DNA of 64,000 bases from Cafeteria roenbergensis (lineage: Eukaryota; Sar; Bigyra; Bicosoecida; Cafeteriaceae), in contig VLTN01000053.1 in NCBI GenBank assembly GCA_008330645.1, positions 124,001 through 188,000 of the forward strand. The letters run 5' to 3'. Shown here piece after piece: positions 3,133-25,672 of the stretch. The first letter of the stretch is position 1; each line of letters starts with the position of its first letter. The notes beneath the pieces were generated by a model, which made no database searches, was not told the DNA's origin, and worked only from the letters and a program-made list of their open reading frames with translations. The position numbers and the translations under genes are program-made.

Positions 3133-4709
3133 ATGGTGGTCAAGACCTTGCTGTCGTTTGTGCCGGGGTTCGTGTGGAACCTGCTGGAGGCGATGATGAT
3201 GAACATTGTGGCCCCTGTGTTCATGCCCGTGAGGCTCGGAGGCGACAGCTGCGAGCCGGCGCCCGCGGGCGCCGGCTCCCCCGAGCGCCTCTCCGAACTC
3301 CAAGGCTCCGCGAGGGATGACTCCGTTTGTTCTCCGCGGCTTGGGGCTGCTCTGCGCCGTCGTTTTGGCTTTCGCGGATGTGCGGACGCAGCGAATGCGC
3401 GCTGCGTCACACTGACTCGAACGCGTCAGGATTGAATGTGGTGCCTCCCGTCGTCCGCCCTGCCCCCGCAGCTGGTGGAGGCCAACCTTGTGCCCACCTT
3501 CCTGATTCGCTTCGCGGTCAAGTCCTTCCTTGGGCAGCGCCTGGTGCTGAGCGACCAGGGGTCCGAGGCCGCCAACATGGCGGACAAGATGCGCTACATC
3601 AAGGACTTGCGCTCGCGGCCCATCGCTGAGCAGCAAAAGGCCGCCAACCAGCAGCACTACGAGGTCCCCACCCCCTTCTACGACCTGTGCCTTGGCCCCT
3701 GGAAGAAGTACAGCTGCGGCCTGTGGGAGGCCGGCACCACTACGCTGGAGGAGAGCGAGGAGCGGGCGCTTGCCCTCGTCGCCACCCGCGCCCGCATGGA
3801 CGAGCTCGCCGCGGCCCGCACCGGGGAGCCCCGACCCCGCGTCCTCGACCTCGGCTGTGGCTGGGGGTCCGTCACCCTCTACCTAGCCACCCACTTCCCC
3901 CACGTCGACATCACTTGCGTGTCCAACTCGACGACCCAGCGAGCCTACATCACGGAGCAGGCGCGCCGCCGCGGCCTCACCAACGTGACAGCCATCACCG
4001 ACGACGCAGCCAAGTTCTCCCCCCCCGCCGGCCAGACGTACGACCGTGTGGTCAGCGTGGAGATGCTGGAGCACATGAAGAACTACGAGGCGCTCTTCGG
4101 CCGGATCAGCACCTGGCTCCGCCCCGGCGGCCTCTTCTTCGCCCACATCTTCACCCACCGCCGCTTCGCGTACCACTTTGAAGAGGGCTGGATGGCAGAG
4201 CGCTTCTTCACCGGCGGCCAGATGCCCTCAAACGACCTCTTCGCGTACTTCCAGCGCGACCTGCGCCTGCGCGACCAGTGGGTCCTCAACGGCATGCACT
4301 ACAAGAAGACCTGCGACGCCTGGCTTGACAAGCTCGACTCCAACAAGGTGAGCTCGTTCTCGTGCAGAGGAGGGCTCGAACTCCATGCGCCGCCGCCCAG
4401 CCCGCCGCCGACCTCCAGCCCCCGCCATTCGACGGCAGCGCCCCCCCTACCCCCCCCCCCCCGTTTCCTGCGCAGGACGCGGCCCTTCGCCTGTTCGCCG
4501 ACAGCCCCAACCCGACCAAGGAGTTCGTGGACTGGCGCCTCTTCTTCATCGTCTGCGGCGAGTCCTTCGCCTACGCCGACGGCGAGGAGTGGCAGGTCAG
4601 CCACTACCTCTTCGAGCGCCCCGAGGACGCGCGCGCTGCCTCGGCTGAAATGCCCGTGCCGGCCGGACGCTCCGCCGCAGCTGGGGGTGCCGCTACCTCC
4701 TCTCGCTAG
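3133..4709 (+). CDS. CFAS/coclaurine N-methyltransferase-like SAM methyltransferase
   Basis: Three exons, 3133-3228, 3472-4347 and 4476-4709, join in phase 0 to give 401 residues. Both introns are GTGAG...GCAG. The protein aligns with the plant coclaurine-N-methyltransferase-like branch of the cyclopropane-fatty-acyl-phospholipid synthase family. Visible marks are [15 protein letters not shown] (about 92-106), KYSCGLW, the SAM motif LDLGCGWGS (about 157-165), [10 protein letters not shown], and the C-terminal [15 protein letters not shown] and [10 protein letters not shown]. The family transfers a methyl or methylene group from S-adenosylmethionine to amines or unsaturated lipid acyl chains; the substrate here is not known. 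The first exon is hydrophobic ([17 protein letters not shown]) and could contact membrane. An in-frame ATG at 3109 is an alternative start. Confidence 0.88.
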
Positions 4710-5085
4710 AGCAGCGCCGCGACGACGAGCGCTGCGCTTGTCGGACCCGGATGGTTGAAGCGCCGGGGAGTGGGCGTGAGCATGGGCTGTGGCTGTGGCT
4801 GTGCGTGGCGTGTGTGCTGCTGTTGAGAGGACTGGCGCGAGCTGGCACCGGGCGGCAAGTGAGCACGGAATTCCATTTTCGGCAAGCGTAGCAGTGCGGC
4901 AGGCGGTCAAAGCGCCAGCTCACGTGCACAGTGCGCTGCCCGTGCAAAGACCCAAACATCCGGCCGGTCGAGGCAAACTTGCCAGGAGGCAGAGGGGTTC
5001 TTGAGCAGGCGCGCTGCGGCCGCGCTCCCAGGGGGTCGCCCCCCCCGGTGCGCTGGCCAGGCTGTCCGAGGCGAGGGCGTTCCGC
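4710..5085. other. Convergent intergenic spacer
   Basis: 376 bp between the stop of the methyltransferase gene and the stop of cystathionine beta-synthase. It holds a GT-rich stretch near 4780-4815. I see no gene or RNA here; it presumably carries both 3' ends. Confidence 0.6.
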
Positions 5086-7521: not shown

Positions 7522-10500
7522 TCACATGCACACGCAAGCCGCGTCCGTTGAGCAGGCACGGATGCTGGGGTCGTTGCTGGCCGCAAACTTGAGCTTGGCC
7601 TCGTCCTCCTCGTCCACCCCCGCGCCCAGCGCGCTGGGAGGCACACTGTCCTGCGGGGGGATGCTTGCCAGCTCCTTCGCTCGCGCCTTCTTCTTGGCGG
7701 CCTCTTCTGCTTGCACTGCACGCTCCTTGGCGAGCTGCTGGGCTCGCGCGGCCCGCTCGGCCTTGAGGCGCGCCTGCTCCTCGGCGAGCTGCCGTCGCTC
7801 AGCCCCGAGCACGATGGCTGCCAGCATGGCGTCGCCGGTCAGCCTGCCCTTCGACTCGGAGGGTGCGTCTTGCGGGATCCCGAGCACGCGCGGCTGCCTC
7901 AGCCCAAACTCGTCCTCGTCCGCGCCCTCACCGGCCCCCGCCAAGCTGGCGCCGGAGTCGTCTGCGCCCGAACCCACAGCCACCGCCACCGCGGTCGCGC
8001 CTTCCTTGGACTCAGAGGCCCCAGAGCCCTCGCCGGCGCCGGCCTCCTCGCCCGCCGGTGAGGCCGCCGTTGGCTCCCAGTCAAAGTCCCCGTCCTCGTT
8101 CACCGCCCACACCTTCTCGTCGGCTGCCGCCCCGCCCCCGCCAGCAGCGGCGTCCTTCGACTGAGGCCCGCCCGGGGCTGCCGCGCTGGCCGCGCCGGCT
8201 GGCTGCTGCTCGGCCACGGCGCCTGCTTCGCCGCCAGCGCCAGCGCCGGCGCCTGCTGAACTGTCCTCGGCGTGTGCGGCACCGCCGACCTTGCTCTCTG
8301 AAGCGTGGTCGTCGCCATCCTCGTCGGCGGCAGCGCTGGTGGCTTCGGCGTCGGCGCTTGTGCCACGGGCACCGTCGGCACTGTCTCCGCCGGCGCCAGC
8401 GGCGCCATGGGAAGAAGGGCCAGCAGTGCTGTCGCTACTGTCGGGCGCCGCAGAGGCTGCTGCCGCCGCTGCCGCCGTCCCCCCCAGCTGGCGAGCAAGC
8501 GATGCCGCCAGCGACTCCCCCGGTAGCCTGCGCTTGTCGAGAAGCGACTGCTTGTCCTCATCCGCCTGACGCGCTGCCTCGGCGGCCGCCTCTGCCTCCC
8601 GCTGCCTGGCAAGCGCCTCCGCCGCCTCGGCAGCCGCCTCGGCCGCCTGCCGCCGCTCTTGCTCCCGCCGCACCACCGCCAGCGCCTCTTGCGTCGCCTC
8701 GTCCTCCGTGGCGCTGCCCCACCCCATCATGTCCACGGAGCAGAAGCGGCCCCACGCCTGATCCGACATGCTCTCTGAGAGGTCCTCGTCCCCCACCGCC
8801 GGCACCATCACCCCCGGGATCCAGGGGTCCGGCAGGGCCACCTCGGGCACCTCATCGGCCGCCGCCTTGGCGTCTCCCCGCCACAGCTTCGGAACGCCCA
8901 CGTGGCACTCAAATGTCAGCAGCGCGTCCGTGTCGCGACTCCGTCCCGAACCCGCCCTTGCCGCCCGGCCGCCGCGGCCGCCACGGCCGGGCCCCGCCCC
9001 GCCGCGCGATCTGCCGGCCACTGCCCCGGCCTGCTCCTCGTCGCTGTCCACGTCGTCCTCGCCCTCCACCTCTGGCAGCGGTCCCCGCGCCATCTCCTGC
9101 GCCGCCCTCGTCACGCTGTTCACTCGCCCTGCCACCCTGGCCAGGGCACCCAGCACCCGCAGGTTTCGCTGCGCCTTGTCTGCTCGCGCCAGCCGGTTCA
9201 CCCTCGCCCTGGCGCGCACGTGGGCGTTCCTGGCCGCCACGCGGAGGAGCTCCTCCTCCATGAAGTGTGCGCGCATCCGGTCCGCCGGACCCGCGCCCTT
9301 GAGCGAGGCCAGGCCTCCCAGCCCTGCAGCGGCGGCCGCCTCGTCTGCGGCGTCCCCGTCCGCCTCACCGCTGCCCCGCCCCACCCCCGCCCCCAGCGCC
9401 TCACCAGACGCGCCTCTGCGCCCGCCGCGGCCACGGGCCACCCCGTCCGTTCCAATCCCCCCCTCCTCCCCCTCCTCCCCCTCCTCACCGGGGGCACCAG
9501 CCAGGGCGCTTCGCAAGTCGCCTTTGGAGTCCTTCCGCTCGGGCTCGGCCATCTCGGCGTCTGCGAGCCGCCGAGCTCGAGCGTGGTCGTCCAAGTCGTC
9601 GTCCTCCGTAGCCATGTCCGCCTTCGCCTCCACGTCCGCGTTGCCCGACCCTGAGGCGATGTTCGCGAGCTCGCCCAGAAACCTCCGGAGCACAGCCTGC
9701 TGCACCTCGCGCACCACCGGCTCCACAGTGTCCCGCAAGGCGGTGTTCAGCCCGGGGCCCTCCTCCACCCAGCAGCGCTGCGCCACCATGGACACGCGCC
9801 GGGAGTCCGCTTCCTTCACGAAGACGATCATCTCGTGCAGCTGCGCCGGCGGCGGCAGCAGGCTCCCTTCCGATGTGACCATTGATACGCGGTACAGCAG
9901 CATCAGGGGAGGGCCGGCGGCTTTCCACGGGCTGCCCTCGTCCTGTCGCACCCACTGTCTCCCGTCGAGAGGCTTGAACTCGATCACCTCTGGAATGATA
10001 AAGTACTCGTTGCAGACCACGTCCTCCAAGCCGCCCTCGCGCACCGTGCCCTCCTCCAGAAGCTCTGCAGGGGCTTCCGGCGCGGCATGAGCGTCGTCAT
10101 CGCCGCCAGCACCGGCGGGCGCGGCCTCAGCGCCCGCGGTCGCTCCTGCTGGCGTTGCAGCGTCTGGGCCAGGCTCGGCAGCGGAGTCCGTCCCCCCAGA
10201 GGGGACAGCGGCCGAGGCAGCCGCAGCAGCCCCACCGGCCGGGGCAGGCGCGCCGGTGGTTCCGCCCCGGTCCGCGCGCGCGTCCCTGCGGTGGCTGGAG
10301 GTGGTGCCGCCGCGCCGATCGGCGCTCGTCTCCGCCAGCCGGGAGAAGCGCAGGCGCCGCGCGTACGCCTCCCATCCCAGTCTCGCCGCGTCCGCATTTA
10401 CGTCCGGGCTCGCAACCTTGGAAACCACGACGTTGACGGGCCCAACCCACGTATGAGCCAGCGGCTGGCGGGCGCTGTTGGCGTGCGGGGCGGCAAACTC

Positions 10501-10755
10501 TTCGATGACGATGTCGTGCGCCCCAGAGTGCCGCAACGCGCGGGTGTAGTCCGACCCCGGGAGCATCAGGAAGTTGCGGACGCGCTCCTGGTCGAACTTG
10601 AGCCGCCCACGCCTGGTGTCGACGAGCATCATGTCGTCTCTCCCGCTAAACCCGTCGCCTTCCGCGTCGCTGACGATCCGGAGCGTGTCCACCACGCGCA
10701 TCCCGACCGTCCGCCACGGGAAGAGCTCCATGAGCTTGTCATTCTGCTCGCTCAT
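7522..10755 (-). CDS. VASt/START-like CaaX protein A (family of three)
   Basis: Uninterrupted 1077-residue frame; the start is MSEQNDKLMELF at 10755, chosen over an in-frame ATG 20 codons upstream because the extension is Arg/Ala-rich and unlike B or C. Residues about 1-140 include VRNFLMLPGSDY, SGAHDIVIEEF and HTWVGPVN, the spacing expected of a VASt (StAR-related lipid-transfer) domain. After a disordered Ala/Gly/Pro insert this resumes near 250-375 (PLMLLYRVSMVTSEG, AQLHEMIVFVKE). Residues 650-680 hold the family motif DQAWGRFCSVDMMGWG. A charged coiled-coil follows, then AMLAAIVLG, and the protein ends in CVCM, a farnesyl-type CaaX box. No membrane helix is visible, so prenylation would be the membrane anchor. 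Function is unknown; lipid binding is inference. It is head-to-head with paralogue B. Confidence 0.8.
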   Translation of the reverse strand: MSEQNDKLMELFPWRTVGMRVVDTLRIVSDAEGDGFSGRDDMMLVDTRRGRLKFDQERVRNFLMLPGSDYTRALRHSGAHDIVIEEFAAPHANSARQPLAHTWVGPVNVVVSKVASPDVNADAARLGWEAYARRLRFSRLAETSADRRGGTTSSHRRDARADRGGTTGAPAPAGGAAAAASAAVPSGGTDSAAEPGPDAATPAGATAGAEAAPAGAGGDDDAHAAPEAPAELLEEGTVREGGLEDVVCNEYFIIPEVIEFKPLDGRQWVRQDEGSPWKAAGPPLMLLYRVSMVTSEGSLLPPPAQLHEMIVFVKEADSRRVSMVAQRCWVEEGPGLNTALRDTVEPVVREVQQAVLRRFLGELANIASGSGNADVEAKADMATEDDDLDDHARARRLADAEMAEPERKDSKGDLRSALAGAPGEEGEEGEEGGIGTDGVARGRGGRRGASGEALGAGVGRGSGEADGDAADEAAAAAGLGGLASLKGAGPADRMRAHFMEEELLRVAARNAHVRARARVNRLARADKAQRNLRVLGALARVAGRVNSVTRAAQEMARGPLPEVEGEDDVDSDEEQAGAVAGRSRGGAGPGRGGRGGRAARAGSGRSRDTDALLTFECHVGVPKLWRGDAKAAADEVPEVALPDPWIPGVMVPAVGDEDLSESMSDQAWGRFCSVDMMGWGSATEDEATQEALAVVRREQERRQAAEAAAEAAEALARQREAEAAAEAARQADEDKQSLLDKRRLPGESLAASLARQLGGTAAAAAAASAAPDSSDSTAGPSSHGAAGAGGDSADGARGTSADAEATSAAADEDGDDHASESKVGGAAHAEDSSAGAGAGAGGEAGAVAEQQPAGAASAAAPGGPQSKDAAAGGGGAAADEKVWAVNEDGDFDWEPTAASPAGEEAGAGEGSGASESKEGATAVAVAVGSGADDSGASLAGAGEGADEDEFGLRQPRVLGIPQDAPSESKGRLTGDAMLAAIVLGAERRQLAEEQARLKAERAARAQQLAKERAVQAEEAAKKKARAKELASIPPQDSVPPSALGAGVDEEDEAKLKFAASNDPSIRACSTDAACVCM

Positions 10756-11232
10756 CGCCCCCTTGCGGCCGGGGTCGGCCCCTGCTCGTGGCAGTGCCCG
10801 GGTTGCGGCTCTCAAGCGGCAGAGCTGCGCGCCGCGCGAACAAGCTCAACTGCCCGTGCGGCAATGCGCGTCCGTTCGCCCGGGCGCATCCGCTGCTCGC
10901 CAGCGGGCTCGCGAGGAGACCGTGTGCGCGCGAATGCGCATTCACGTGGGCTGCGCTGGCTTGGTGATTCGGCCGAGCGCGGCGGCGGCGGCGGCAGCGG
11001 TGCAGTTGCCGCTGGCTTGCCTGCGATCGACGACGGAACAACGAAGCCGCGCTGCGTCAAGCCCACCGAGCCCGCGGTTCGGCAGCTGAGTGCCGTTCCC
11101 TTAGCCTGGCCGAGGCATCCCCTGCGCAGCGCCCCCCGGCCCTGGCCTTGTCTGTGCTCCGCCTGCGAAGCCAGTCGAGCCAAGTGGCGTGCGCCCGCGA
11201 ACCCGCAGGGCTTGGCGTGCTCCTGGTGAGCC
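10756..11232. promoter_or_regulatory. Shared divergent promoter region of paralogues A and B
   Basis: 477 bp separate the divergent starts of A (10755, minus) and B (11233, plus). It contains a GGC-rich tract near 10980-11000. No TATA-like element or other gene is evident. The arrangement suggests the two paralogues could be co-regulated; this is inference from position only. Confidence 0.45.
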
Positions 11233-13118
11233 ATGGCCACGACGGAAGCTGCAAAGGGGTTTGGCTGGCGGCTCGTGGCGCTCCGCTCGATCTCGGTGAT
11301 CGAGTCCATAGATGCCTGGAGCCGCGGCGAGGACCGGGGAAGCAGGAGCGCGTGGCCAATCGAGGCTTTTGACATTGACGCCAGCCCATTTGACGTGTGG
11401 TGCGTCATCCGCGACGGGACTCAGTACTGGCCCATCGTCCGGAAGTGCGGGTACGGGCAAGCTGTGCCCGAGTCCGACGAGTCCGGGCGGCCTGTCGGCG
11501 GCGCTCGCGCGAGCGGGCCCGACGCTGCGGCCACTGTCGAAGGCCCTGCTCCGAGACAGTGGGAGCGCGGCTGGACTCGACACCAGGGTGCTGTTGCCCA
11601 GATTGAGCGCAGCGATGGGGGCAGCTTGAAGCTCGACGCGATGGCAAGAAAGTTGTACATGCGGTCGTCACTGGAAGGAAGTTGGAAGCCTGCTGCCATT
11701 CTCGGCGTGGGACTGAGGACGCCGTTCATGCGGCTCCGGGTTTCCGAATACGTTGTTCGCTCCCTGGACGGCCTGTCGAAGGAGGAGCAGGCGCTTGTGG
11801 ACAAGCAGCTGAGCATGGCGCCGCGAACAAAGCGCGCGCAAGCGATGCTCCGGGAGGTTGGGAAGCCTGAGGTCCTGGTTCTCTTGCGCGTGCAGCAGGT
11901 CACCGTGAGGCTTCGGCCCGCCGCTTTTTGCATCGGGGAAGGCGCGTGCCTCGCTTGGTCGCGCCGATGCGGTTTGGCGCATGTGAAGCCCGTGGGTCGC
12001 AATGTCTCTCGGTGGTTGCGCCGCTTTGGCTTGCGCAGAATGGACGCTTCGGAAACGTGCTGCAGCTGTTCGAGTCCTTCGCGTGTTTGCGGTCGACAAC
12101 GCCTGGCGAACCTGTGAGGACATTGCTTGTGTACTCGAACTGGGTGGAGGCCAGTCCGTCGAGCGCACCGGCCATTCTTGGGGCCGATGTCAGCTGTTTA
12201 GAGCTCGGTATTTCTGAAGCAATGCATGTAAATGCCAAGAAGCTTGTGGAGGCGATTCGTTGTGCGGCTAACGGCCTCTCTGGGAGAGTCGACACGTCCG
12301 ACTCATCGAGCACCATTTCTCCGGCGGACAGTCTGGACACTCCAGCCGTTGCCAAGGACATCCCTGTCGCACCCCCGCCTCGAGAGCAGATTGACGCGGC
12401 CATTGCCGCTGACGCTGTCCGGGCCGCTGAGCTGGCAGCTGCCGCCTCCGACGCAGCTTCGGCAAAGAGGCGAGAGTTTGAGCGGGCAGATGACATTCGA
12501 TTGGCGCTCGGCAGGATGCCGGCACTCCTCAAGGCGCGGCTTGCGCTCCTCGTCGGCCAGGATGGAGGGCTTGACGTACCAACGGACGAGGAGCTGGCGC
12601 TCCTAATGCCGCCTCCTGAGCCGAAGTCCGAAGCTGGATGGCTCGACTGGGGAGGCGATCTGTTTGCCTCCCCCGGCCTTGGCGGCACAGCCGGCGAAAC
12701 GGGCCCGATGCCCAGCTTGCTCACGGTTCCATCGGCAGACGTGGAAGACCTCGAGGTCGAATTCCAGACTGAGTCTTGGGCGCGGGCGTGCTCGGTTGAC
12801 ATGCTCGGCGATGCATATCCTGCAGTGGACGCAGAGGAGCTTGAACGCGCGACAGCGGCTGTCCAGGCCGCGGAGCGGGCACGAATCATGGACGAAGAGG
12901 AGTACGCGCGGCGCGCAACCTTGGCCCAGCAGCGGCAGCAGCCCCTCGACGGCAAGGAGCTGATGGCGGTCTTGCTGGGGCGGAAGGGGCCGACCGGAGA
13001 TGCGGACGGGATTTCTCCCGCTCCCAAGTCGGAGGCCACATCTGGCGAAGCGCGCCCGGCTCGCGAGCCCTCGAGCTCGCCTAGGGTGTGTGCCAGCGAA
13101 GTCTGCCCCGTAATGTAG
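11233..13118 (+). CDS. VASt/START-like CaaX protein B (family of three)
   Basis: Two exons, 11233-11904 and 12039-13118 (134-nt GTGAG...GCAG intron, phase 0), give 583 residues. The N-terminus has FGWRLVALR, parallel to FPWRTVGMR of A, then DIDASPFDVWCVIRDGTQYW, a segment like the first strand-helix of START/SRPBCC folds. The splice restores VLLRVQQVTNGRFGN and QLFESF, which align with YRVSMVTSEG and QLHEMI of A and FRISQTP and QLHEYL of C. The family motif is TESWARACSVDMLGD (about 467-481), followed by a short coiled-coil, KELMAVLLG, and the C-terminal CPVM CaaX box. It is the shortest member, with fewer low-complexity inserts. Codon third positions look less GC-rich than in neighbours. Function is unknown. 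Confidence 0.8.
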
Positions 13119-13593
13119 CTGCTCCGCTCCGCACGCACTCAGCTCGTGGCAGCGCATGCAGCAGCGTCGCCAAGGCGGCGAGCGTGGGGCGTCAGACTAC
13201 TTTGCGTAGGAACATAGCAGTAGCGGACAGACCGCTCCCACTCGAGGTCTCGCCACTCGTGAAACTGCACCGCGCTGCGCACGGATTCAATCGACGACGA
13301 TGAGCGGAAATGGCAGAGCGGCGGAGCCGAAGGCATGCTTATCGGGTCCACTCGAGCAGCGTGCCCTCTTCTTGTGGCCGCGGGCGAGGCAAGATGGTGC
13401 GCCACCGCTGCCGGGGTGCGCGCGACTGACGCTAGGCCTCGTCTGCGGTCGGGGCGCCAGCGCCTGTGGAGTCTGAGCGGGAATCGCTGCATTGTTGCCG
13501 CACATTCCCGCGGCTAGCGGCGCCAGCGCGCCGCACGCCCTGGCGCGCAGCCGCGTCGCCGCACCCACCCCGCGCGTTGCCGCGTGCATTGTC
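13119..13593. other. Intergenic spacer
   Basis: 475 bp between the stop of paralogue B and the start of the sterol reductase, same strand. The reductase frame stays open back to 13492, but that extension is Ala/Arg/Pro-rich and not family-like. Nothing else is recognised. Confidence 0.5.
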
Positions 13594-15063
13594 ATGGTGC
13601 TTCGTTCGCAGACTGAGCGCTCGTCTAGCTCCATGAGGCAGCGCCGGCCCGCGAGGACGGTGCCAGCCGCCGAGGACGATGACGTGTGGAAGCCGCGCAC
13701 TGTCGACCCCGAGTTCGGCGGGCCCGTGGGGACGTTCATCATCACCATTTTGATGAGCCTGACAATCCTGTCGGTCACGCACACGGGCTGGCTTGAGCTG
13801 CCGTGGCAAATCCCTGACCTGTTCACGGACCCCGCAGCGTACGTGGCCCGCGCGGCCACGTCCCTGGGATTCGCCATCCCGGCCGGGTGGTGGCTTCTGC
13901 ACCTCACCCTGCACGTGGTCCTCCCCGGGCGGGTCGTGCTCGGCGTGCCTCTGCCCACCGGCCAGCGCCTGCGCTACAAGCTGAACGGATTCGCCTGCGT
14001 CGCCCTCTCGGTGGTCCTTGCCCTGGCGTGGCACGTGGCTTGCGAGACGTCCAGCTTCGGTTTGCGCCCCTCCCAGTCCCTGCGCTGGCTCACCCTCTCG
14101 TCGAGCCTGGAGCAGCTCGCCTTTGGCACCGTCTGCATGTGCTTTGCCAAGTCCACCTGGCTCTACCTCGCGTCCTTCCAGGGCCGCAGGCTGCTCGCAG
14201 AGCCTGGAAACAGCGGCGTCATGGTTTACGACTGGTTCATGGGCCGCGAGCTGAACCCGCGCCTCTCGCTGTCAGGCGGATCGGAGCTGGACCTCAAGTT
14301 CTTCAACGAGCTCCGCCCCGGCATGAGCGCCTGGGTCGTCCTCGCCCTCGCCCCCGCTGTGGTGCACCTGCAGGACACCGGCGCCGGAGCGGCCGCCCTG
14401 GCATTCGTGGCGGGGCGCGACCCCGTGGCGCTCGTGGCCCCGCTCAAGGCAGAGCTGTTCGCTGTGGTGGGCCTTCAGGTCATGTACGTGCTGGACAGCG
14501 TGCTCTTCGAGGAGGCCATCCTGACGACCATGGACATCATCATGGACGGCTTCGGCTTCATGCTCTGCGCCGGCGACCTCGCCTGGGTCCCCTTCACCTT
14601 CAGCCTGCAGGGGAGGTACATCCTGCAGAAGGACGAGGGGCTCCCTCTCGAGCAGTGGCTCGTCGCGGCCGCGGTGGGCTTGCTCGGCTTCGCCGTGTTC
14701 CGCCTGTCCAACCTCCAGAAGAACACGTTCAAGGCGGACATGGACGGCCCTGCCGTCCGCGACCTCCCGACCATCCCAGCCCGCTCCCTGCCCCCGCGCG
14801 AGGGCGGCGGCCGTCTTCTGGCCGGCGGGTGGTGGGGCATGGCCCGGCACATCAACTACCTCGGTGACTGGCTGCTCGGGCTCTCGTGGTGCCTCCTCAC
14901 CGGGTTCGAGCACCCCGTGCCGTACCTCTACGCCTTCTACTTCGCCTTCCTGCTCCTGCACCGCGAGCGCCGCGACGACCACAAGTGCGCGCAAAAGTAC
15001 GGGCCCTACTGGAAGGAGTACCGCGCACTGGTGCCGTGGCGAATCATCCCCTTCCTCTACTGA
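13594..15063 (+). CDS. ERG24: Delta14-sterol reductase (ERG24/TM7SF2/LBR family)
   Basis: 489 residues without introns. The enzyme reduces the C14-C15 double bond of sterol intermediates with NADPH in the ER membrane, after C14 demethylation. Visible family marks are YDWFMGRELNPR, DLKFFNELRPGM, DIIMDGFGFMLCAGDLAWVP and FTFSLQGRYIL. The C-terminal signature is GWWGMARHINYLGDW and LTGFEHPVPYLYAFYF. It continues with LHRERRDDHKCAQKYG and ends VPWRIIPFLY. The GDLAWVPFTFSLQ version points to the C14 rather than the C7 (DHCR7) or C24 (ERG4) reductase. About eight to nine hydrophobic segments are present. The ATG at 13594 is preferred; the charged N-terminus (residues 1-45) is cytosolic by analogy. 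Its neighbour is a putative lipid-binding protein, which may be coincidence. Confidence 0.9.
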   Translation: MVLRSQTERSSSSMRQRRPARTVPAAEDDDVWKPRTVDPEFGGPVGTFIITILMSLTILSVTHTGWLELPWQIPDLFTDPAAYVARAATSLGFAIPAGWWLLHLTLHVVLPGRVVLGVPLPTGQRLRYKLNGFACVALSVVLALAWHVACETSSFGLRPSQSLRWLTLSSSLEQLAFGTVCMCFAKSTWLYLASFQGRRLLAEPGNSGVMVYDWFMGRELNPRLSLSGGSELDLKFFNELRPGMSAWVVLALAPAVVHLQDTGAGAAALAFVAGRDPVALVAPLKAELFAVVGLQVMYVLDSVLFEEAILTTMDIIMDGFGFMLCAGDLAWVPFTFSLQGRYILQKDEGLPLEQWLVAAAVGLLGFAVFRLSNLQKNTFKADMDGPAVRDLPTIPARSLPPREGGGRLLAGGWWGMARHINYLGDWLLGLSWCLLTGFEHPVPYLYAFYFAFLLLHRERRDDHKCAQKYGPYWKEYRALVPWRIIPFLY

Positions 15064-15200
15064 GCAGCCGCGCGCGTGCGGCGCGGCTGCGCGCCGGCGT
15101 TGACGGGCCTGCCGCGCCCTCCTTGCGCTCCTGGAGCGCACGGCCGCAGCGTGCCTCGCGTGGCAACCGTCAAGTGAGCATTGGCGCGCGTGTCCGTGAT

Positions 15201-15225
15201 GCCCCCCCCTGGGGGGGGGGGGGGG
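15201..15225. repeat. C-run/G-run inverted homopolymer
   Basis: A run of eight C, one T and fifteen G lies in the 292-bp convergent spacer between the sterol reductase and Rab2. The two runs are complementary and could fold back or form a G-quadruplex on one strand. It sits where two transcripts converge, so it may affect 3' ends; this is inference. It is also a likely place for sequencing error in run length. Confidence 0.7.
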
Positions 15226-15355
15226 TGGGGCTGCCAAGGCGACATGGATGGCGCGACCGTTCGCCTCCAGCGTGCGCTAGCCAATCACACACATGCAAGA
15301 ATTGGTACCGGGTTGGGAGCGAAGGTGGTGGGGGACGGGGAGGAGACCGCCCACT

Positions 15356-16403
<1,048 letters not shown>

Positions 16404-16727
16404 CGCGCCCCGCGCTGGCTGTTGCTGCGAGCCGACGCAGCGGGATTGTGCCAACGAGGCAGCAGTGACGATGCTCCCCCCGATGTCAATATTTGACGGC
16501 CTGCCCAACTCTCGAAGCCAAGGCGCCGGGCGTCACAGGTGGCTGCGTGGCCACTTGGCCGCAGCGACGGCTGGCGGAGGCTGCCAGTGTGTGCAATCGG
16601 CGGCACGGCACGGCGGGCACGCTCCCGTGCGACCGAACGCAGGGTCGCGATGCGCGCTTCGGCACTCCGCTGACCGTGCGCTCCACACCACTCAAGTTGC
16701 GAGTCACGCATTGCCGCCGGGACTGCA
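16404..16727. other. Intergenic spacer upstream of Rab2
   Basis: 324 bp between the Rab2 start and the stop of the next minus-strand gene. It is somewhat less GC-rich around 16470-16500. It presumably holds the Rab2 promoter; no gene seen. Confidence 0.5.
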
Positions 16728-19700
16728 TCACGCGCGCTTGGAGGAGGCTTGTGCCTTGGCCAGGCGGGCCGCGAACCGCGCGTTGGCCAGCCCCACAGCG
16801 CGCTGCGCAAGGTTCCCCAGCGCCTCCGCCAGCTCGTCGATCTCGCTCTGTAGTCGCTCGAAGCGGTCCTCGGCGAGCTGGCGCGCCTTGGCGCCTTCGA
16901 TGTCCAGCACCTCGTCACGCGCCTGCCGCAGCGCCCTGGCGTCCGACATTGGAGGAGGGCGCTCCGACTCCGGCGCCGAGGGGTTGAGCTCTCTCCAGTT
17001 GTCCAGCAGCCATTTCACCTTCTTCGCGCGGAGAGTCACCTCGTCGCGCAGCCCCACATCGCTCGATATCTTGGCGCCCACCTTGGCACGCGCGTCGGCC
17101 TCGGCCCTGTCGGCCTCGTCGTCGGCAGCGTCGCGCAGGAAGGACTCCAGCTCTGCTCGCGCGGCCCCGGCCTCCTTGTCCATCTTCCACACCTCCCGCC
17201 GGAGGGCGACCACGTCCTCCGAGGGCGGGCGCCGCGGGTCGGAGGATGCCAGTGACCGTGTGGCCTCGAACACGGCGGCTGCCTGGCGGTGGCGGAGGTG
17301 CGCGAGCACCCAGCGGGCGCTCACCCCCCGGCCCAGCGAGCCCCACTCCGCGGCACTATCGATCACGGGCTCCACCTCTGACACCTCCCCCCCATCCCCG
17401 CCTGCCCCTGCCCCTGCCCCTGCCCCTGCCCCTGCCGCCGCGCCATCGGGCTCTGTATCCGGCCAGGCCGTGGCCGGGCCGCCCGGCACTGTCCTGCCCC
17501 CTTCGGGCTTCTGCCCGCCCCCGCCCTTGGCAGCCAGCGCCGCCTCTGCTGCCGCCCGCTTCCTGGCCACAGCCGCGCGCGAGGGCACCACCCCGCCGTC
17601 CTCCAGCAGCCTCATCGCCGCCCTCGGCCTCGCCCACCTCACCGTGGCACGGAGGTCCACCAGCATGCTGCGCATCGTCGGCCACTTCGCCTCCCGCGCG
17701 GAGGCGCCCCCCCGCTGCGCCGCAAGCTCCTCCACGTCCGCCTTGACGAACCCGCTGGTGAGCATGACTCGGGCGTTGAGCACCACGTCCCGCTCAGTCT
17801 TCTGCGCCCGGCCCAGCGCCGCGACAGCCTCCTTCTCCTCCTGCTGCCGGAACCAGAACCGGTCGTCGAAGCGGATGGCAAACCGCTGGGCGTCAGACAG
17901 CTCCTCGGCCCCGGAGGCAGCCGTGGCGCCGTCGTCTTCGTCATCATCTTCGTCATCATCGTCGTCATCAGCATCGTCGTCGTCGTCGTCATCGTCGTCG
18001 TCGTCGTCGGCCTTGCCCTCCTCAGCAGCCCTCGCCTTTGCACCGCCCCGACCACTGCCAGCCGCATCCGCCGGCCCCTCGTCGTTGTCGTCGTCGACGG
18101 CCGCTGCAGCTGCCGCCCGGGCCTCAGCGCGCTTGCCCGGCCCGGCAGCGCCCTCCTCTGCCTCCTCTCCGCTGCTCTCACCGTCATACGAGTCATCGGC
18201 GCTGGCCACATCGCCCACCTCGCTCTCGTCGTCCGACGTCGTCGACCCTTCGTCGTCGCCGTCGCTGGCGTCGAGGTCGGAGGCCCCGGTGCCGTCGCCC
18301 AGACCAGTGCCTCGCAGCCCCAGGTCGTTCCCGTTGGCGTCCTTGGGCGTTCGAAGGTACCGCCCAGGCCAGTCCTTGAGCGCCTGCAACGACCCTGCCT
18401 TCATCGCGGCCGCGACAGGCGTGCGCTCCACGGCGCTCGTCTCCGTCAGCACCCGCTGCGCGAGCGACTCCGGGACGATGTACGGAAGCGCGTTGCTCGC
18501 CCACGCAGCCAGCAGCCGGAGCCGCGGGTGCACGCGGGGGTACACTGCCACGGCCTCGTCTCCGAGCGCAGCCGCCTGAGCGAGCGCAGCGGCGTCCAGC
18601 GGCACGCGCGGCATGGACGGGTCCACCGGCCACTGACTGGCGCGTGACGGACCCTGCCGCGCCGCCGCCGCTGCGCGCCGCTCCCGCCGCTCCCGCCGCC
18701 GGGCCCGCTTCGCCTCCGCCTCTGCCTGGGCCGCCGACTGCCCAGCGGACGACTGCCCCGCCCCAAACGGGGCCCTTGCCACAGCCGGATGACCCCGCGC
18801 CGTCCGGACAGTGGGGCCGCGAGAGAGCACCCGCGCCGCCTGCGCGATGTCCCCAGCGTCGCCCGGCACGGCCCCGTCCAGCTCAAAGCTGCGGCCGCCG
18901 AGGCGAATCCGGATGGCGGCTCTTGCGGCACGGCGGGCGGCCCTGGCGCGGCGACGCATGGCCCGGCGCGCCGCCATGTCGCTACCCGCACCCACGAGGC
19001 CCTCCTCCCCCTGCTCTGCATCCGCAGGAGGCCAGCCCGCGCCCCACCCTGCCGCGGCGGATGGGAGCGGCGCCGCCGAGCGCGCGGCCGCTGCGGCGGC
19101 CAGGGCGCGCTCCTCCAGCGCCGCCCGCGCCGCCCTGGCTGCCCCGGGCGGGCGCATGCTGTACCACACCTGCATCGCGCGCACCTCGAGGGGGGACGGG
19201 TGCGCCAGCGTGGCGGGTCCCCTCGTCGGCGGGCGGGGCAGGAACGGCACCGTGCGGTCTCGCGGAAAGGCCTGCGGAGGCGGGTCCAGCGAAGCCTTCC
19301 CCGAGGCGAGCGCCGCGGCGACGTTGGAGGGGTCGACCACTGGGAGGTGCATGAGCGACTGCCCGTCGCGCGCAGACGCGCTCTCCGACGCCAGGTCCGG
19401 GGCCGGCGTGGCGGCGGCCACGGCGCTCCAGCCGAGAAGATCAGCCACCGACTCGCAGCAGAGCCGTGCGAAGGTGACGCGAGTGGCTCTGTCGTGCTCC
19501 ATCAGGGTCCAAAGCTCTGCTGCCCGGAGCATTTTTCGGCCGGGGCCTGTGCCAAAGTACCCCGTGCCTGCCAGATGCGGAGTTTGGGCCTTGCTTTTCT
19601 CCGCACGGCGGGCCCTGGCCGCCTCAGCCTTGAGCTTCCGCGCCGCGGCCGCCCCTGAGAGCACGCTGCCGAGGCTGCTGTTCCGGCGGAAGAGGGCAAG

Positions 19701-21326
19701 CTCTGCCGCTTCGGTGCCCCCGGCCGCCCCAGCCGCCTTGGGCGGGCCGGCGGAGACGGACGCCCTCGCTTCCCGCCGCGCGCGCTGCCGCTGCCTGACA
19801 GCCGCCTTGACCGCCTGGTCCGACCTGGGCTCGCCCCCGCCGGCCTCGGCGCCGCCGGCCTCCGCGTCGCCCTCGCCCTCACTGTCAGGAGGGGTCTCGA
19901 CCCCCAGCCGCACCAGCTCCTGCTCGGCTGCCTTGAGAAAAATCTCCACAGGGTCTCCTCGAAGCTCCCCGCCAACGCTGCCGGGGGCCGGGTGCGTCTG
20001 CGGCGGCTGCAGCCTCGCCCACCGCTCCCACGGCCGCTCCGCCTCCGCAGCTGCTCGTCTCGCGTCGTACCGAGCCTTGGCCTCGCGGGTGAGGTGCGTG
20101 AGGTGGGCCTTCGCTTTGGACGCGACCGCCGCCGCGTCCGACCGCTGCCGCCGAGACTGCGCGGTATTGACAAGACCCACGCAGCGCTGGTACTCTGTGG
20201 CGGCGGCCCGCAGCGCCGCCCGCTCAGCGGCAGCCGTCGCGGCCTCCTCCGCCTCCTCCTTGGGGTGCGTGAAGGACGGCCGGCCGCCCAGCGCCCTAGC
20301 CGCCACGGCATCACGGCACCGGCTGCGAAGCCCAAGGATCCCGCCGGCGAGGACGGGTGAGCGGGCGGCGGCGGATACGAACTCGTCCACGGTCACCACG
20401 GCGTCGGGCACGCCCGACTGGCGCGCCAGCGCGGCCACCAACGAAGGGTCGCTCCCCCCGACAAGCGCAGCGCCCGGCCGGTCGGGGGCGTGAGCGACGG
20501 GGCCCGCCAGCGCTGCTGCAGCTCTGCCGTCAGCTCTGCCGTCAGCTCTGCCGTCAGCAGCTGAGGGCGCTGCCCCGGCGCCGGCAGCGCCGCGAGGGGA
20601 AGCGCCTCCCCTCCCACTGGCCCGCTCGTCTTGCTCTGGCGGTGTGGGGCCGCCGCCCTTCTCGAAGGCCTCCACGCTGAGAAGGAGGCGGAGGAACGCC
20701 TCCGCCAGGCCGGGCACCTCCTGCAGCGACTTGGCCCCGTAGGAGGCGCACAGCAGGTGGCGCAGGGCTGTGGCGGTGGCAACGCCGCGCCTGTGGCTGT
20801 CCACAAGGCCGAAGCAGAAGCGGACGAGCGCGCCCTCTTGCAGAGTGCAGAGGTTCCACACCACGGCGACGAATGCGGAGAGCGTCAGCGGCTCGGGCTC
20901 TGGAACCGGCCGCACTCCCAGCAGCCCAAGCAGCCGCGCAGCCAGAATCGGCGAGTAGTGGATGCCCAGTGCGCGCGCCGCGAACCGCCACGCCACGGTT
21001 CCCGTGGCGGCGGGCGACATGGCGGACGCAGACGCAAAGCAACGCCAAATGCCCGCGATGATGTTGATCGGCAGCCGCAACTCGAGGGCGAGGCGAATGG
21101 CAAGGATGACCTCGTCGGCCTTCACGCCTCGGAGTAGGGGCAGGAGGCGCGCCGCCTTGGGGCCGAGGTGCAGTTGCGTTCTGCGTCCCGTTGAGCTTCT
21201 CCACTCCCACGTGGCCACGCTCGGGCGCTCGAGCTCAATCGTCGCGGAGGGGGGCGCATCCTCGTCGCGCCCCGCAATGTCTGCGGCCCCCACCGCGTAC
21301 CGAGAGTCCCCGATGCCCATGCGCAA
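16728..21326 (-). CDS. Large protein with degenerate EF-hand region and acidic coiled coils
   Basis: 1532 residues in one open frame; the start is the ATG at 21326 or 21320. Residues 148-200 (SAFVAVVWNLCTLQEGALVRF, then CFGLVDSHRRG) resemble the calcineurin-B-like helix-loop-helix in which a Trp-Asn-Leu-Cys-Thr-Leu helix precedes an EF loop. Here the loop (Asp175, His177, Arg179, Gly180) lacks most calcium ligands. Residues 312-350 (VDEFVSAAARSPVL...RCRDAVAARALGG) resemble the second half of such modules. The rest is Ala/Glu/Arg-rich with an Asp tract, repeated ADGR units, AGAG dipeptides and a C-terminal coiled coil (EDRFERLQSEIDELAEALGN). I do not recognise the protein as a whole. A scaffold or cytoskeletal role would be a guess. 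Confidence 0.72.
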   Translation of the reverse strand: MRMGIGDSRYAVGAADIAGRDEDAPPSATIELERPSVATWEWRSSTGRRTQLHLGPKAARLLPLLRGVKADEVILAIRLALELRLPINIIAGIWRCFASASAMSPAATGTVAWRFAARALGIHYSPILAARLLGLLGVRPVPEPEPLTLSAFVAVVWNLCTLQEGALVRFCFGLVDSHRRGVATATALRHLLCASYGAKSLQEVPGLAEAFLRLLLSVEAFEKGGGPTPPEQDERASGRGGASPRGAAGAGAAPSAADGRADGRADGRAAAALAGPVAHAPDRPGAALVGGSDPSLVAALARQSGVPDAVVTVDEFVSAAARSPVLAGGILGLRSRCRDAVAARALGGRPSFTHPKEEAEEAATAAAERAALRAAATEYQRCVGLVNTAQSRRQRSDAAAVASKAKAHLTHLTREAKARYDARRAAAEAERPWERWARLQPPQTHPAPGSVGGELRGDPVEIFLKAAEQELVRLGVETPPDSEGEGDAEAGGAEAGGGEPRSDQAVKAAVRQRQRARREARASVSAGPPKAAGAAGGTEAAELALFRRNSSLGSVLSGAAAARKLKAEAARARRAEKSKAQTPHLAGTGYFGTGPGRKMLRAAELWTLMEHDRATRVTFARLCCESVADLLGWSAVAAATPAPDLASESASARDGQSLMHLPVVDPSNVAAALASGKASLDPPPQAFPRDRTVPFLPRPPTRGPATLAHPSPLEVRAMQVWYSMRPPGAARAARAALEERALAAAAAARSAAPLPSAAAGWGAGWPPADAEQGEEGLVGAGSDMAARRAMRRRARAARRAARAAIRIRLGGRSFELDGAVPGDAGDIAQAARVLSRGPTVRTARGHPAVARAPFGAGQSSAGQSAAQAEAEAKRARRRERRERRAAAAARQGPSRASQWPVDPSMPRVPLDAAALAQAAALGDEAVAVYPRVHPRLRLLAAWASNALPYIVPESLAQRVLTETSAVERTPVAAAMKAGSLQALKDWPGRYLRTPKDANGNDLGLRGTGLGDGTGASDLDASDGDDEGSTTSDDESEVGDVASADDSYDGESSGEEAEEGAAGPGKRAEARAAAAAAVDDDNDEGPADAAGSGRGGAKARAAEEGKADDDDDDDDDDDDADDDDDDEDDDEDDGATAASGAEELSDAQRFAIRFDDRFWFRQQEEKEAVAALGRAQKTERDVVLNARVMLTSGFVKADVEELAAQRGGASAREAKWPTMRSMLVDLRATVRWARPRAAMRLLEDGGVVPSRAAVARKRAAAEAALAAKGGGGQKPEGGRTVPGGPATAWPDTEPDGAAAGAGAGAGAGAGGDGGEVSEVEPVIDSAAEWGSLGRGVSARWVLAHLRHRQAAAVFEATRSLASSDPRRPPSEDVVALRREVWKMDKEAGAARAELESFLRDAADDEADRAEADARAKVGAKISSDVGLRDEVTLRAKKVKWLLDNWRELNPSAPESERPPPMSDARALRQARDEVLDIEGAKARQLAEDRFERLQSEIDELAEALGNLAQRAVGLANARFAARLAKAQASSKRA
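17935..18012 (-). repeat. Asp-encoding trinucleotide tract
   Basis: Runs of GTC and ATC on the plus strand read as Asp codons (GAC, GAT) on the minus strand, giving a tract of about 25 nearly pure Asp/Glu residues inside the EF-hand-like protein. Confidence 0.85.
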
Positions 21327-21693
21327 CGCTGGCTGAGCCGCGCTGTCGCTCGCCCGTTGTGCTGCGCGCGCTCCCCGGCCGACGCAGCCACGCCCCGGCC
21401 CGTTCCGGAGCCCCAGAGCGCTTCCTGGCGACGCGATGCAGCGCCCTCCCGGCGCGGGGCGGGTAGGAGTGCGAGCAACACCTGGTTGGGGCGAATCGAG
21501 AGGGCTGCTTGGCGCGTTAAAACTAGCCTTTCAATTGCAGAGCGACCCAAGGCCGGACTTGAGCGCGACTCAGATGCGCCGCGACTGCCGGGGGCGGAGC
21601 TGAGCGCACGCCACCGCGGCTGGCAGCGACCGGGGATTGCGGCACGGGGCCAACTGAAAATGTCTGTGGCCTTCTTTTCTCGAACCTTGACGG
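21327..21693. other. Intergenic spacer
   Basis: 367 bp between the start of the EF-hand-like gene and the stop of the class I methyltransferase gene, both minus strand. It includes an AT-richer patch near 21515-21545 (GTTAAAACTAGCCTTTCAAT) that may be promoter sequence. No gene seen. Confidence 0.5.
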
Positions 21694-22668
21694 TCAAGCA
21701 CGCTCGACCATGATCGCAAACAGGGGCCACTCAACGACCACAGGCCGGTCGCCAAACGCCGCATCCAGTGAGCGCCGTGCGGCGGCTATGGGGTCGGGCG
21801 CGTCGGGTTGCTCGCGCTTGAAGGTCTTGTACGCGGACCAGGTGGACAAGTAGCCCGCCAGCGCAGCCACGGACATTTCGCGGCGGATGCTCAAGTCCTC
21901 GTCTCGCCAGCAGCGCGTGAACAGGACCTCGCTGGAATCACCGCCGGTCGACCTTGCGCCGCCGTCGCTGGGCGTCGCAGAATCGTCCCACTCGGCCACC
22001 TGCGCGGCGCGAGGTTCCAGTCCCACGTAGTGGGAGTCGATGTGTCCGCGCCGCTCGTCCCAGTGGACGCCCAGGTCGTCCTTGTACAGCTTGCGCACGG
22101 CAGCGTTCGCAACCTCCTCGGCCCTGGCAGCCGAACTGGCACCATCGGCGCCAAAGGAGCCCTCGGCCGCGTGAAGCACGCAGTTGCCATAGCCCACGAG
22201 CGCGACCACACCGCCCGGCCGAAGCGCCCGCGCAGCAGACGCGTACACCCCAGGCCGCTCGGCGCTCTCGCCGTGCAGCTGAAACCAGTGCGCTGCCTGA
22301 AATGCGACGACAAGGTCCGCGGATCCTGCGGGAACGCCGCCGCCCGTCTCGATTGCCTCGGCTCCGACCTGTCGCAGGGTCACTCGCGATTTCGCGTCGG
22401 CCGGCAGGGCCGCTCTGGCTGCCTCCAGCTGGCCCGCCGACGGCTCGAGAGCCACAACGCGTTCAAAGTGCTCGAGCAGGCCGGGGAGCGCCTGCCCGGT
22501 CCCCGTGCCAAGGTCGACGGCGAGGCTGCGCGGGCCGGAACGCACCGCGTCCGCAAGCCGTGCAAACAGCTCCGTCGGGTACGTGGGCCTGTGGGCCGCG
22601 TACTCTGCTCCGTGTTGGAACAGCTTGTGCGCCGCCACGCGCTCGATGGCGGCGGCAGCTGCAGCCAT
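21694..22668 (-). CDS. Class I SAM-dependent methyltransferase (Methyltransf_11/CRG1-like)
   Basis: 324 residues from the ATG at 22668; an ATG 14 codons upstream opens an Arg/Pro-rich extension and is less likely. The SAM-binding fold is visible: LAVDLGTGTGQALPGL (about 49-64, motif I), VVALEPSAGQLEAAR (acidic loop end of strand 2), DLVVAFQAAHWF (motif post-II), and LRPGGVVALVGYGN (motif III). The N-terminal FQHGAEYAAHRPTYP is typical of the yeast CRG1/TMT1 and plant homologues that methylate small acids. The C-terminus (LSIRREMSVAALAGYLSTWSA) also matches that group. The substrate cannot be read from sequence. It is divergent from paralogue C with a 245-bp spacer. Confidence 0.87.
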   Translation of the reverse strand: MAAAAAAIERVAAHKLFQHGAEYAAHRPTYPTELFARLADAVRSGPRSLAVDLGTGTGQALPGLLEHFERVVALEPSAGQLEAARAALPADAKSRVTLRQVGAEAIETGGGVPAGSADLVVAFQAAHWFQLHGESAERPGVYASAARALRPGGVVALVGYGNCVLHAAEGSFGADGASSAARAEEVANAAVRKLYKDDLGVHWDERRGHIDSHYVGLEPRAAQVAEWDDSATPSDGGARSTGGDSSEVLFTRCWRDEDLSIRREMSVAALAGYLSTWSAYKTFKREQPDAPDPIAAARRSLDAAFGDRPVVVEWPLFAIMVERA

Positions 22669-22913
22669 GGCCCCCCCGGGCCGGTGCTCGCGCGGTTCCC
22701 GGAGCCGCACTCGAGCAGGCAGAGCCCGTGCGCAACCCTAACCTCGGCTGGCGTGGAAGGCCAAGACCGCACCCGCACCAAGAGCGAGGCGATCCGGCCT
22801 CGTCGCGCCCCTCCGTTGCCAGCAGCATTGGTCGCGTTGCTGTCGGTCTTGGGAGGCCCGACCGTGGCGACCCCGCATTCCGAGCCGCGAGCGGCCGAGC
22901 GTGCGCTGCTGCA

Positions 22914-25672
22914 ATGGCAGCCGCAGGGTCTGGGCTCGCCCACGCCGACCTGACGGAGTACCTGGCTTCGCTCAGCAGGCAGCTGCCGGATGAGGCCAGT
23001 GTTATGGACCGAGCGTTCGCGCTCGGGGTAGGAACGCGGGAGCTTTTCGACACCATCCGCGACACCGAAAAGACGCTTGAGCTGTACGCGTCCCTTGGAA
23101 GCTCCAACATCAAGGTGTCAGCATGGCAGCGGCACAAGCACGATGTCGTGCTGGATCCCAGCCGGATGCCGCTGAGCAAGGACAAGTCGGAGGCCGTGAA
23201 GCTGTCCCACAAGGGGTTCGCGGTGTTCCAGCGGCTCGTGCAGCGCTACCGGAGCGACGGCCAAGGGGTGCCGTACCTGGTGTCCTCTGTGGAGTATTTG
23301 TGTCTGCACGACGAGGAGGTGGCAGTCCCTCGGCTGTTCGTCCTCTTCCGCATCTCTCAGACACCCACGCAGCAGTACGGCGAGATCATGCAGCTGCATG
23401 AGTACCTCACCTTCTACAGAGGTGAGCCGCGCCGCCGCGAGGGCGATGCGCGGCGATCGGCCGAGCCTACCTGCCCACTCGTTCCCAGTAGCAGCTCGTA
23501 GGCGCCCCTCTCACCACCGTGGGCCTCGCGACCCCTCGCCCCCCCCTCCCCCCCCGTGCCCCCGCAGCTGGCCGCACCGTGCCCCCTGGCGTTACCGGGC
23601 CCGAGAAGAGCCCCTTCCTGCTGGCAGAGCACACGTCCCTCGGCCGCACGGTGGTCAACTACAAGCCAGCCATCGAGTACGCCGGCTCGAAGCCCATCTT
23701 GCACCAGCTCATCAAGCGGATCGCTATCCCAAGCATGGAGGCAGCCTTCGCGGACTGGATCAAGGCGCTCGGTCCGCTGGCGGCACGCTTTGCCCAGGAG
23801 CTCATGCGCAGAGCCCGCGCCAAGGCCAAGGCACAAGCGGCCAAGCTCGAGGAAGAGGCCAAGAGTTGGAGGGCCACCACCGATAGGCTCGGAACATCCC
23901 CGACGCCGGCTGACGACGCAAAGGCAGAGGCTGGCGCCAAGGCCGAGCCGGGCGGGGGCGCCGCGGCGGGCCAAAGGGGGCACGCTCGGTCCGGCAGCGG
24001 CGGCAGCGTTGGCAGCGGCGGCAGCGGCGGCAGCGGCGCGGCAGGGGCTGCCGCAGCGTCAGCAGCGGGTGCCGGTTCTGGTTCCGGCTCCGGGTCGGGG
24101 GCTCAGAGCCCAGCGGGAGCCGATGCAGCAGCGGCTGACGGGAGCGGCAGCCCGGGAGCAAGCAAGCCGCTGCAGGGGAAACAGCTGTTCATGGAGACGG
24201 TTGCGATGGCCTCCACGCTGGCCCACAAGGCGGTCAAGCACTCCAGGGAGACGTCGGCGATGGGCCAGGACATGCGGAGGCTGGAGGCGCGCGCCGCCGC
24301 GCTGCGGGAGGAGGCCGAGGTCGCGCAGCGAGACATCCGCCGCACCGTCCACAAGTACGTGAACGGGCAGGATATGACGCCTGCGGGCATGGCCCGCGCC
24401 GCGAAGCAGCGGAAGGAGCTGCAGGAGCAGGAGGCCGCTGCCCAGGAGGCGCGTGAGGCGGAGGGCGCGCGTGAGGCGGAGCGCAGGGCGGAGATGGAGG
24501 CTGCGCTCGGCGGTGCGGTGTTCACGGCGGACGAGGACACGGGCCGGTTCGGGCTCCTCGACGAGTACGCAATCGAGGGCTCTGCTGCCGAGGAGAGCCG
24601 CGGCACGTGCCAGTGGGGCGTCCCTCACGTTGACGACGAGGAGCTGACGGGGAGGTTTTGGTCAGAGTCGTGGGCGCGCGACTGCAGCATCTGGCCGGGC
24701 GCTGTGGAGGGCGACCCCCAGGCCACGCTGTTCGGCTTCCTGCTCAGCACGCTTGGCGGCAAGCCCGCTGCGAAGGCGAGCAAGGCAGCGGCCGGCGAGC
24801 CGGCGGATGCGGCGGAGGCCGTGTTGGACGCGACCCCAGACGGCCCGGCAGCCGGCGGCGGCGACGGGGCGGAGGGCGAGGCGGAAAGCTCCGCAGGAGA
24901 TCCAGCCGACGCGCCCGCGAGCACGCTAGACGCCATAGCGGGCTCCGTGGCCCAGCAGCGACCAGGCGAGGCCGAGGAGCCCCACGAGCCGCGGCCCGCC
25001 ATCGACGGCCGCAGCGCGGCGGAGCGGCAGAAGGCCCTCCTCGCCGCCATTGTGGGCCGCGTCTCGGCCGCGCTGCCCTTCGGCATGGCTCCCGGGACCA
25101 AGAAACAGGCACGGGCGGACGGACTTACGGTGGACACTGAGGCCGCGGATGACGCCGCGGACACCGTTCCTTCTGTGGGACGCGTTCACCCCCCGTCCTC
25201 CGGCCGCTCCCGTTCGACGCCAACGCCCCTCGCGGCGGCGCAGCATCAGACCGAGGCGCAGGCCCCGCCGCCCGCGGTCACCGTGGGTGTGGCCGGCCGC
25301 GCCACCACGGCCGCCGACCTGGCTCGCCTTCTCGACGCCGTGGACGTCCTGCCGCCCCCGAAGCGCCGGCCGCAGCCGGCAGGCGCCGCGCCCAGCGGCA
25401 GCGTGCTTCCCGACGCGACCCCCCCGCGCAAGGTCTCAGGCGCCTCGGGGTATGCTTCAGGGTACGCGTCCGGATACGGGACCGATGTGGAGCGCTCGCG
25501 GGAGTTCATGTCGCTGCCCCACGACACCGTGCAGCCGCCACGGTCCGCGTCCAAGGGGCCCTCGAAGGCGCGCCAACCCGTCGACCCTGCCGACATGGCC
25601 GTTGCGGACATGCCCGCGCTGAGGGCGAGAGGCGAGTGCACGCCGGCCGACGCCCCGTGCGCAGTCATGTGA
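22914..25672 (+). CDS. VASt/START-like CaaX protein C (family of three)
   Basis: Two exons, 22914-23421 and 23568-25672 (146-nt intron), give 870 residues. Residues about 45-240 carry the clearest lipid-transfer-like pattern: RELFDTIRDTEKTLELYASLG, then NIKVSAW and DPSRMPLSK, then LFVLFRISQTP, QLHEYLTFYRAG, LLAEHTSLGRTVVNY and a C-terminal amphipathic helix AFADWIKALGPLAARF. This order resembles VASt domains, which bind sterol in LAM/Aster proteins. A Lys/Ala helix, a Gly/Ser linker and a coiled coil follow. The family motif is SESWARDCSIWPGA (about 533-546), then ALLAAIVGR, a Ser/Pro tail with repeated ASGY units, and the CAVM CaaX terminus. There is no membrane helix, unlike LAM/Aster proteins, so farnesylation would replace it. 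Function is inferred, not shown. Confidence 0.82.

Follow-up and report, generated by a model that had tools for sequence, protein, structure and literature searches.

The LAM/Ysp2/Aster (GRAMD1) proteins are long, multi-part proteins with a membrane anchor at the C-terminal end, lamins with a Met-ending CaaX box are large proteins with a farnesyl-type tail, and Ras-type proteins such as N-Ras and its relatives have dually lipidated tails. In some Ras and Rap proteins, S-palmitoylation affects one or two Cys residues that precede the prenylation motif, as described in work on these GTPases (PMC5869587). Three genes of Cafeteria roenbergensis, a stramenopile in which a giant virus and a virophage are grown in the laboratory, resemble each of these systems in part. 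Their products, here called A, B and C, share with LAM/Ysp2/Aster a long multi-part layout, a putative C-terminal membrane anchor and possibly an N-terminal region of mixed strands and helices, with the Ras-type tails a Met-ending CaaX box with an extra Cys 6, 5 and 7 residues upstream (A, B and C, respectively), and with the lamins a large size and a farnesyl-type tail. They differ from LAM/Ysp2/Aster in having no detectable VASt domain, GRAM domain or transmembrane-like segment, all three of which are present in the GRAM-VASt protein of the same genome (L001), from Ras-type proteins in having no GTPase domain by Pfam and in their long, low-complexity linkers, and from lamins in having no lamin or filament Pfam match and, by reading of the sequence, no long coiled-coil rod. 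Lamins have been noted in oomycetes in one report (PMC5630835). Our best reading is that A, B and C form a family of scaffold proteins anchored by farnesyl and perhaps also by palmitoyl, with prenylation being what we infer from the tails and the gene content of the genome.

The three genes were analysed in a window of 64,000 nucleotides (contig C53, positions 124001-188000; GC content of about 71%) from a genome of 36.30 Mb in 167 contigs. Strain BVI of C. roenbergensis is now named C. burkhardae. Table 3 of the assembly paper gives 170 contigs, 36,327,047 bp and 70.1% GC for strain BVI, and 1.67-1.89 introns per gene are reported there (PMC6972860). Gene A (7522-10755, minus strand) is a single open frame of 1077 amino acids with a CVCM end. 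Gene B (583 amino acids) consists of exon 1 (11233-11904, plus strand; residues 1-224), with the donor GTGAGG at 11905, and exon 2 (12039-13118, plus strand; residues 225-583), with the acceptor CAG/AAT and a CPVM end. Gene C (870 amino acids) consists of exon 1 (22914-23421, plus strand), with the donor GTGAGC at 23422, and exon 2 (23568-25672, plus strand), which has a CAVM end and whose frame is also kept with exon starts at 23502 and 23628. The single predicted introns of B (134 bases, 11905-12038) and C (146 bases) are placed differently, before QLxE in B and after LTFYR in C. A and B are arranged head to head with 477 bases between them, and C lies 9.8 kb beyond. The coordinates and lengths given in the first-pass annotation were correct and all three models held on re-translation.

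Long chance open reading frames are common at 70% GC, and it could be argued that the motifs lie in spurious frames. The frames of gene B have a third-position GC of 0.75 and 0.67, below most of the 30 window frames listed, a list itself drawn up on the difference between third- and second-position GC; codon selection may perhaps be weaker in gene B, or its change faster. Nevertheless, third-position GC in gene B still exceeds second-position GC, the frames of A and C are coding-like (0.83 and 0.84), the introns begin with GT and end with AG, and the blocks described below are common to three separate genes on both strands, making a gene-model artefact hardly credible.

The interval between B and C contains an ERG4/ERG24-family sterol reductase gene immediately 3' of gene B (13594-15063, plus strand; Pfam E 8.6e-103), a Ras-family GTPase gene (15356-16399, minus strand) with a CC end, that is, a geranylgeranyl-type tail, a methyltransferase, and a 1600-residue open frame that matches no Pfam family at E 0.01. 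The GTPase family is matched in two separate parts of its frame, suggesting an intron inside it.

Comparison of the three sequences shows them to be distant paralogs of one family, and two blocks, found in identical order in A, B and C, carry most of the signal. Block 1, with the common pattern P-x-[LV]-x-x-L-x-R-[VI] followed by QLxE, covers residues 282-314 of A (PPLMLLYRVSMVTS...QLHEMIVFVK; 9814-9912, minus strand), 212-243 of B (PEVLVLLRVQQVT...QLFESFACLRS; 11866-12095, plus strand, split by the intron) and 139-169 of C (PRLFVLFRISQT...QLHEYLTFYR; 23328-23420, plus strand). In the three-way ungapped search, the best block of the N-terminal regions, PPLMLLYRVSMV / PEVLVLLRVQQV / PRLFVLFRISQT, scored 84, a value that no shuffle out of 100 attained (mean 57, maximum 72). 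Block 2, the WCS block, has the common pattern VPxxDxExL-x8-WxRxCS[VI] and was recovered both by the block search and by a genome search; it covers residues 651-676 of A (VPAVGDEDL...AWGRFCSVDM; 8728-8805, minus strand), 454-479 of B (VPSADVEDL...SWARACSVDM; 12726-12803, plus strand) and 521-546 of C (VPHVDDEEL...SWARDCSIWP; 24620-24697, plus strand). Its score of 176 (VPAVGDEDLSESMSDQAWGRFCSVD / VPSADVEDLEVEFQTESWARACSVD / VPHVDDEELTGRFWSESWARDCSIW) was likewise beyond every one of 100 shuffles (mean 51, maximum 93).

Pairwise shuffle tests were significant for the WCS region in A-B, A-C and B-C and for the N-terminal region in B-C and A-C; the N-terminal A-B pair alone was not significant (92/1000 and 178/1000 shuffles), and the first halves of the N-terminal regions showed no similarity in any of the three pairs. 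The linkers between the blocks, composed to 75-87% of A/G/S/P/D/E/T/Q/K/R, were at chance in the three-way ungapped search (18/60 shuffles for 12-mers and 13/60 for 25-mers), and the part C-terminal of the WCS block did not clearly exceed it (4/60 and 3/60). Comparison of the single full-length proteins by hhalign gave probabilities of 65.9% for A-B, 43.1% for B-C and 3.5% for A-C, and of the N-terminal regions alone 0.3%, 22.5% and 1.0%, respectively. In genome searches with the N-terminal region of A, whole B and the N-terminal region of C (E up to 10), the three did not match one another, and self-matches were accompanied only by a weak match for A on contig C36 (E 0.068), within its low-complexity part, which we read as chance. 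These searches speak against a family, and the kinship is therefore old and rests mainly on the two blocks, with conservation measured among three paralogs of one genome. Among the parts that the first-pass annotation had listed as shared in one order, the core block including QLxE was recovered and the Trp-Cys-Ser motif was borne out in A, B and C, whereas LxAhhLG was not above chance in the block search. Its observation as a whole is partly confirmed.

The C-terminal tails are CSTDAACVCM in A (7525-7554, minus strand), CASEVCPVM in B (13089-13115, plus strand) and CTPADAPCAVM in C (25637-25669, plus strand), each with Cys fourth from the end and Met last before the stop, and with the second Cys at -10, -9 and -11, respectively. 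As the earlier annotation had observed, all three end in a Met-type CaaX box, and they are exactly the 3 of 370 six-frame window ORFs (at least 100 amino acids) with a CxxM end. Cys is scarce in these proteins (7, 8 and 5 residues in whole A, B and C), and the chance by composition that two or more fall within the final 11 residues amounts to 0.0023, 0.0080 and 0.0010, respectively. Met in the last place of a CaaX box favours farnesyl over geranylgeranyl. Three genes of the prenyltransferase beta type were found in the genome, one for farnesyltransferase beta on contig C47 (best PDB match E 2.1e-58), one for RabGGTase beta on C1 and a third, beta-like one on C7, for which RabGGTase beta is likewise the best PDB match. 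A gene of the ICMT family lies on C41. Since this family is also matched in 5 of the 14 prokaryote genomes taken as controls, the gene on C41 is a candidate only and no proof of a CaaX methyltransferase; together with farnesyltransferase beta, it represents the prenylation machinery in this genome.

The tails would also be found in a true paralog family of soluble proteins in which CxxM is not prenylated and the tail Cys residues serve for a disulfide, for metal or for nothing. CVCM, with Cys at a2, and CPVM, with Pro at a1, are not ideal and count as weak CaaX boxes, and beyond the Cys pattern the tails are hardly conserved, being not or barely alignable above chance (A-B 138/300, A-C 8/300 and B-C 73/300 shuffles). 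Against this stand the concentration of Cys, otherwise scarce, in the final residues of all three proteins, each of which has Met last, and the presence of prenyltransferase genes in the genome, and we consider the lack of prenylation to be rather unlikely. Prenylation of A, B and C is a prediction from their tails.

The first-pass annotation had interpreted the N-terminal region as a VASt/START-like sterol carrier, with farnesyl replacing the transmembrane anchor of the LAM/Aster proteins. The strand order and the C-terminal helix are plausible by eye, and the sterol-reductase gene adjoining B would suit such a role; we treat that adjacency as a coincidence until shown otherwise. Pfam searches with whole A, whole B, residues 1-244 of C and exon 2 of C, at E up to 10, gave no VASt (PF16016) or START match and chance matches only, namely CutC (E 0.22, N-terminal region of C) and OmpH (E 1.2, exon 2 of C). 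A VASt search of the genome itself returned only L001 (L001:709-3435, minus strand, contig C3), a GRAM-VASt protein whose C-terminal part includes a hydrophobic segment and which served as a control; the GRAM domain, matched by Pfam in this positive control, had no match in A, B and C. No transmembrane-like segment was found, the best 19-residue means being 1.01, 1.29 and 1.69, below those of L001 (2.64) and the adjacent sterol reductase (2.09). When PDB sequences were searched with a profile of the N-terminal region, there was one match, GAPDH (E 0.56), attributable to chance.

Profile-profile comparison with VASt gave no support either. By hhalign the probabilities were 0.1-0.9%, at low power (controls: L001-Aster 22%, At5g50170 fragment 7%), and the best match of C fell at the VASt C-terminus (P 0.06), a point in favour of the earlier interpretation. 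Semi-global profile Z values, from 60 shuffles per comparison, were -0.7 to 2.0, as for other parts of the same proteins, whereas true VASt pairs reached 6.8 and 5.6. As hhalign is weak with thin profiles, giving only 22% even for the true VASt gene against Aster, the semi-global test outweighs it. AlphaFold2 single-sequence models were of low confidence, with a mean pLDDT of 37 for residues 1-367 of A and 45 for exon 1 of C, modelled alone and thus without the end of the N-terminal region. The A model, at this pLDDT of 37, places strands at 246-254, 284-294, 304-314 and 321-332, followed by a helix at 338-366, an order that would be compatible with the final part of a helix-grip fold; it agrees with a small strand-rich module, yet it fits many folds. 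Foldseek searches with both low-confidence models gave nothing at E <= 0.001 and no VASt or START protein among the best 50 of 522 and the best 50 of 132 matches. VASt/START membership was rejected on the Pfam, hhalign, genome-search and semi-global results with their controls, and a sterol carrier of this kind is very improbable. The earlier interpretation as a whole is partly supported: a sound observation of a CaaX-tailed family was over-interpreted as a VASt sterol carrier.

We also considered a BAH-like N-terminal region, in proteins whose farnesylated, lamin-style tail would link chromatin to the nuclear envelope. B and C resemble the pattern WFYR...(V/L)F.SN...I.G..V by eye, Met-ending CaaX boxes are found in lamins, and 1 of 12 comparisons was mildly raised, one of the four with A (3/100 shuffles). 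However, profile Z values were -0.8 to 2.2 in comparison to 7.1 to 12.5 in four true BAH pairs (100 shuffles each), there was no Pfam BAH (PF01426) match, and in a genome-wide BAH search (E up to 10) only three candidates scored, ORC1 (C30) and those on C41 and C74. BAH membership of A, B and C was rejected on the profile test with controls and the genome-wide search, and chromatin tethering is extremely improbable.

The reading we prefer, and hold to be probable, is that local duplication probably gave rise to A, B and C as divergent paralogs of an undescribed lipid-anchored peripheral membrane family with long low-complexity linkers. Farnesyltransferase would attach farnesyl to the CaaX Cys, the last three residues would be removed and ICMT would then methylate the new end, and the upstream Cys is perhaps palmitoylated. 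The N-terminal region with block 1 would form a small strand-rich module at the far end of the chain, and the WxRxCS block may serve, on a flexible tether, as a linear site for docking or for phosphorylation (R-x-x-S followed by a hydrophobic residue), which would let the membrane-anchored protein recruit a partner. The R-x-x-S part, with V or I next, agrees with the sites of basophilic kinases. A and B, which have Trp at -5 and Met or Leu at +4, would also match the AMPK-type consensus, and C, with no hydrophobic +4 residue after the motif Ser, would not. A more elaborate proposal, in which A, B and C are lineage-specific START-like lipid carriers too diverged for sequence methods, the farnesyl-plus-palmitoyl tail replaces the transmembrane helix and WxRxCS is a phosphorylation switch for partner docking, is very improbable in our judgement.

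In order to count members, the 36.3-Mb genome was searched (E up to 10) with a WCS query, the sequence of B with two residues altered, and only three candidates scored, B (E 2.6e-17), A (2.6e-4) and C (1.8e-3). The DNA pattern for W[AG]RxCS[VI] occurred at 17 places genome-wide, with 4 for the reversed pattern as control; diverged members that break the pattern could escape this search. Three of the 17 places are A, B and C, and the remaining 14 are without the surrounding block by eye; 13 of these end without CxxM, and the frame of the other (L014) extends beyond the sequence examined. By tblastn, viral contigs gave no relatives for the N-region alignment (157 pattern stretches) or for the WCS alignment (52), and prokaryote genomes gave none for the WCS alignment (148). 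Because these viral and prokaryote collections are expected to hold little protist DNA, the family is not shown to be confined to Cafeteria. Titles and abstract openings of the papers found on lipid carriers with CaaX tails, VASt proteins and stramenopile CaaX proteins describe no such proteins, and no paper was found that joins Cafeteria burkhardae and farnesyl.

If the tails are used, A, B and C would constitute a CaaX protein family outside small GTPases and lamins, and the conserved WxRxCS block provides a sequence handle for finding relatives. We regard it as a moderately interesting orphan family for which no surprising mechanism is supported; it also serves as a warning that motif patterns that look like VASt or BAH by eye can fail a profile test with controls. 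Elsewhere in the window, the first 2 kb have a strong AT skew, and a 39-base tandem array of fifty copies (GCGGCCTCCTCC...) at 468-2283 presumably encodes a repeat protein. A methyltransferase gene of the cyclopropane-fatty-acid-synthase-like type lies at 3436-4758 (plus strand; CMAS, E 5.6e-31), and the protein encoded at 59398-60465 (plus strand) has a phosphopantetheine attachment site at its C-terminus (E 1.1e-7).
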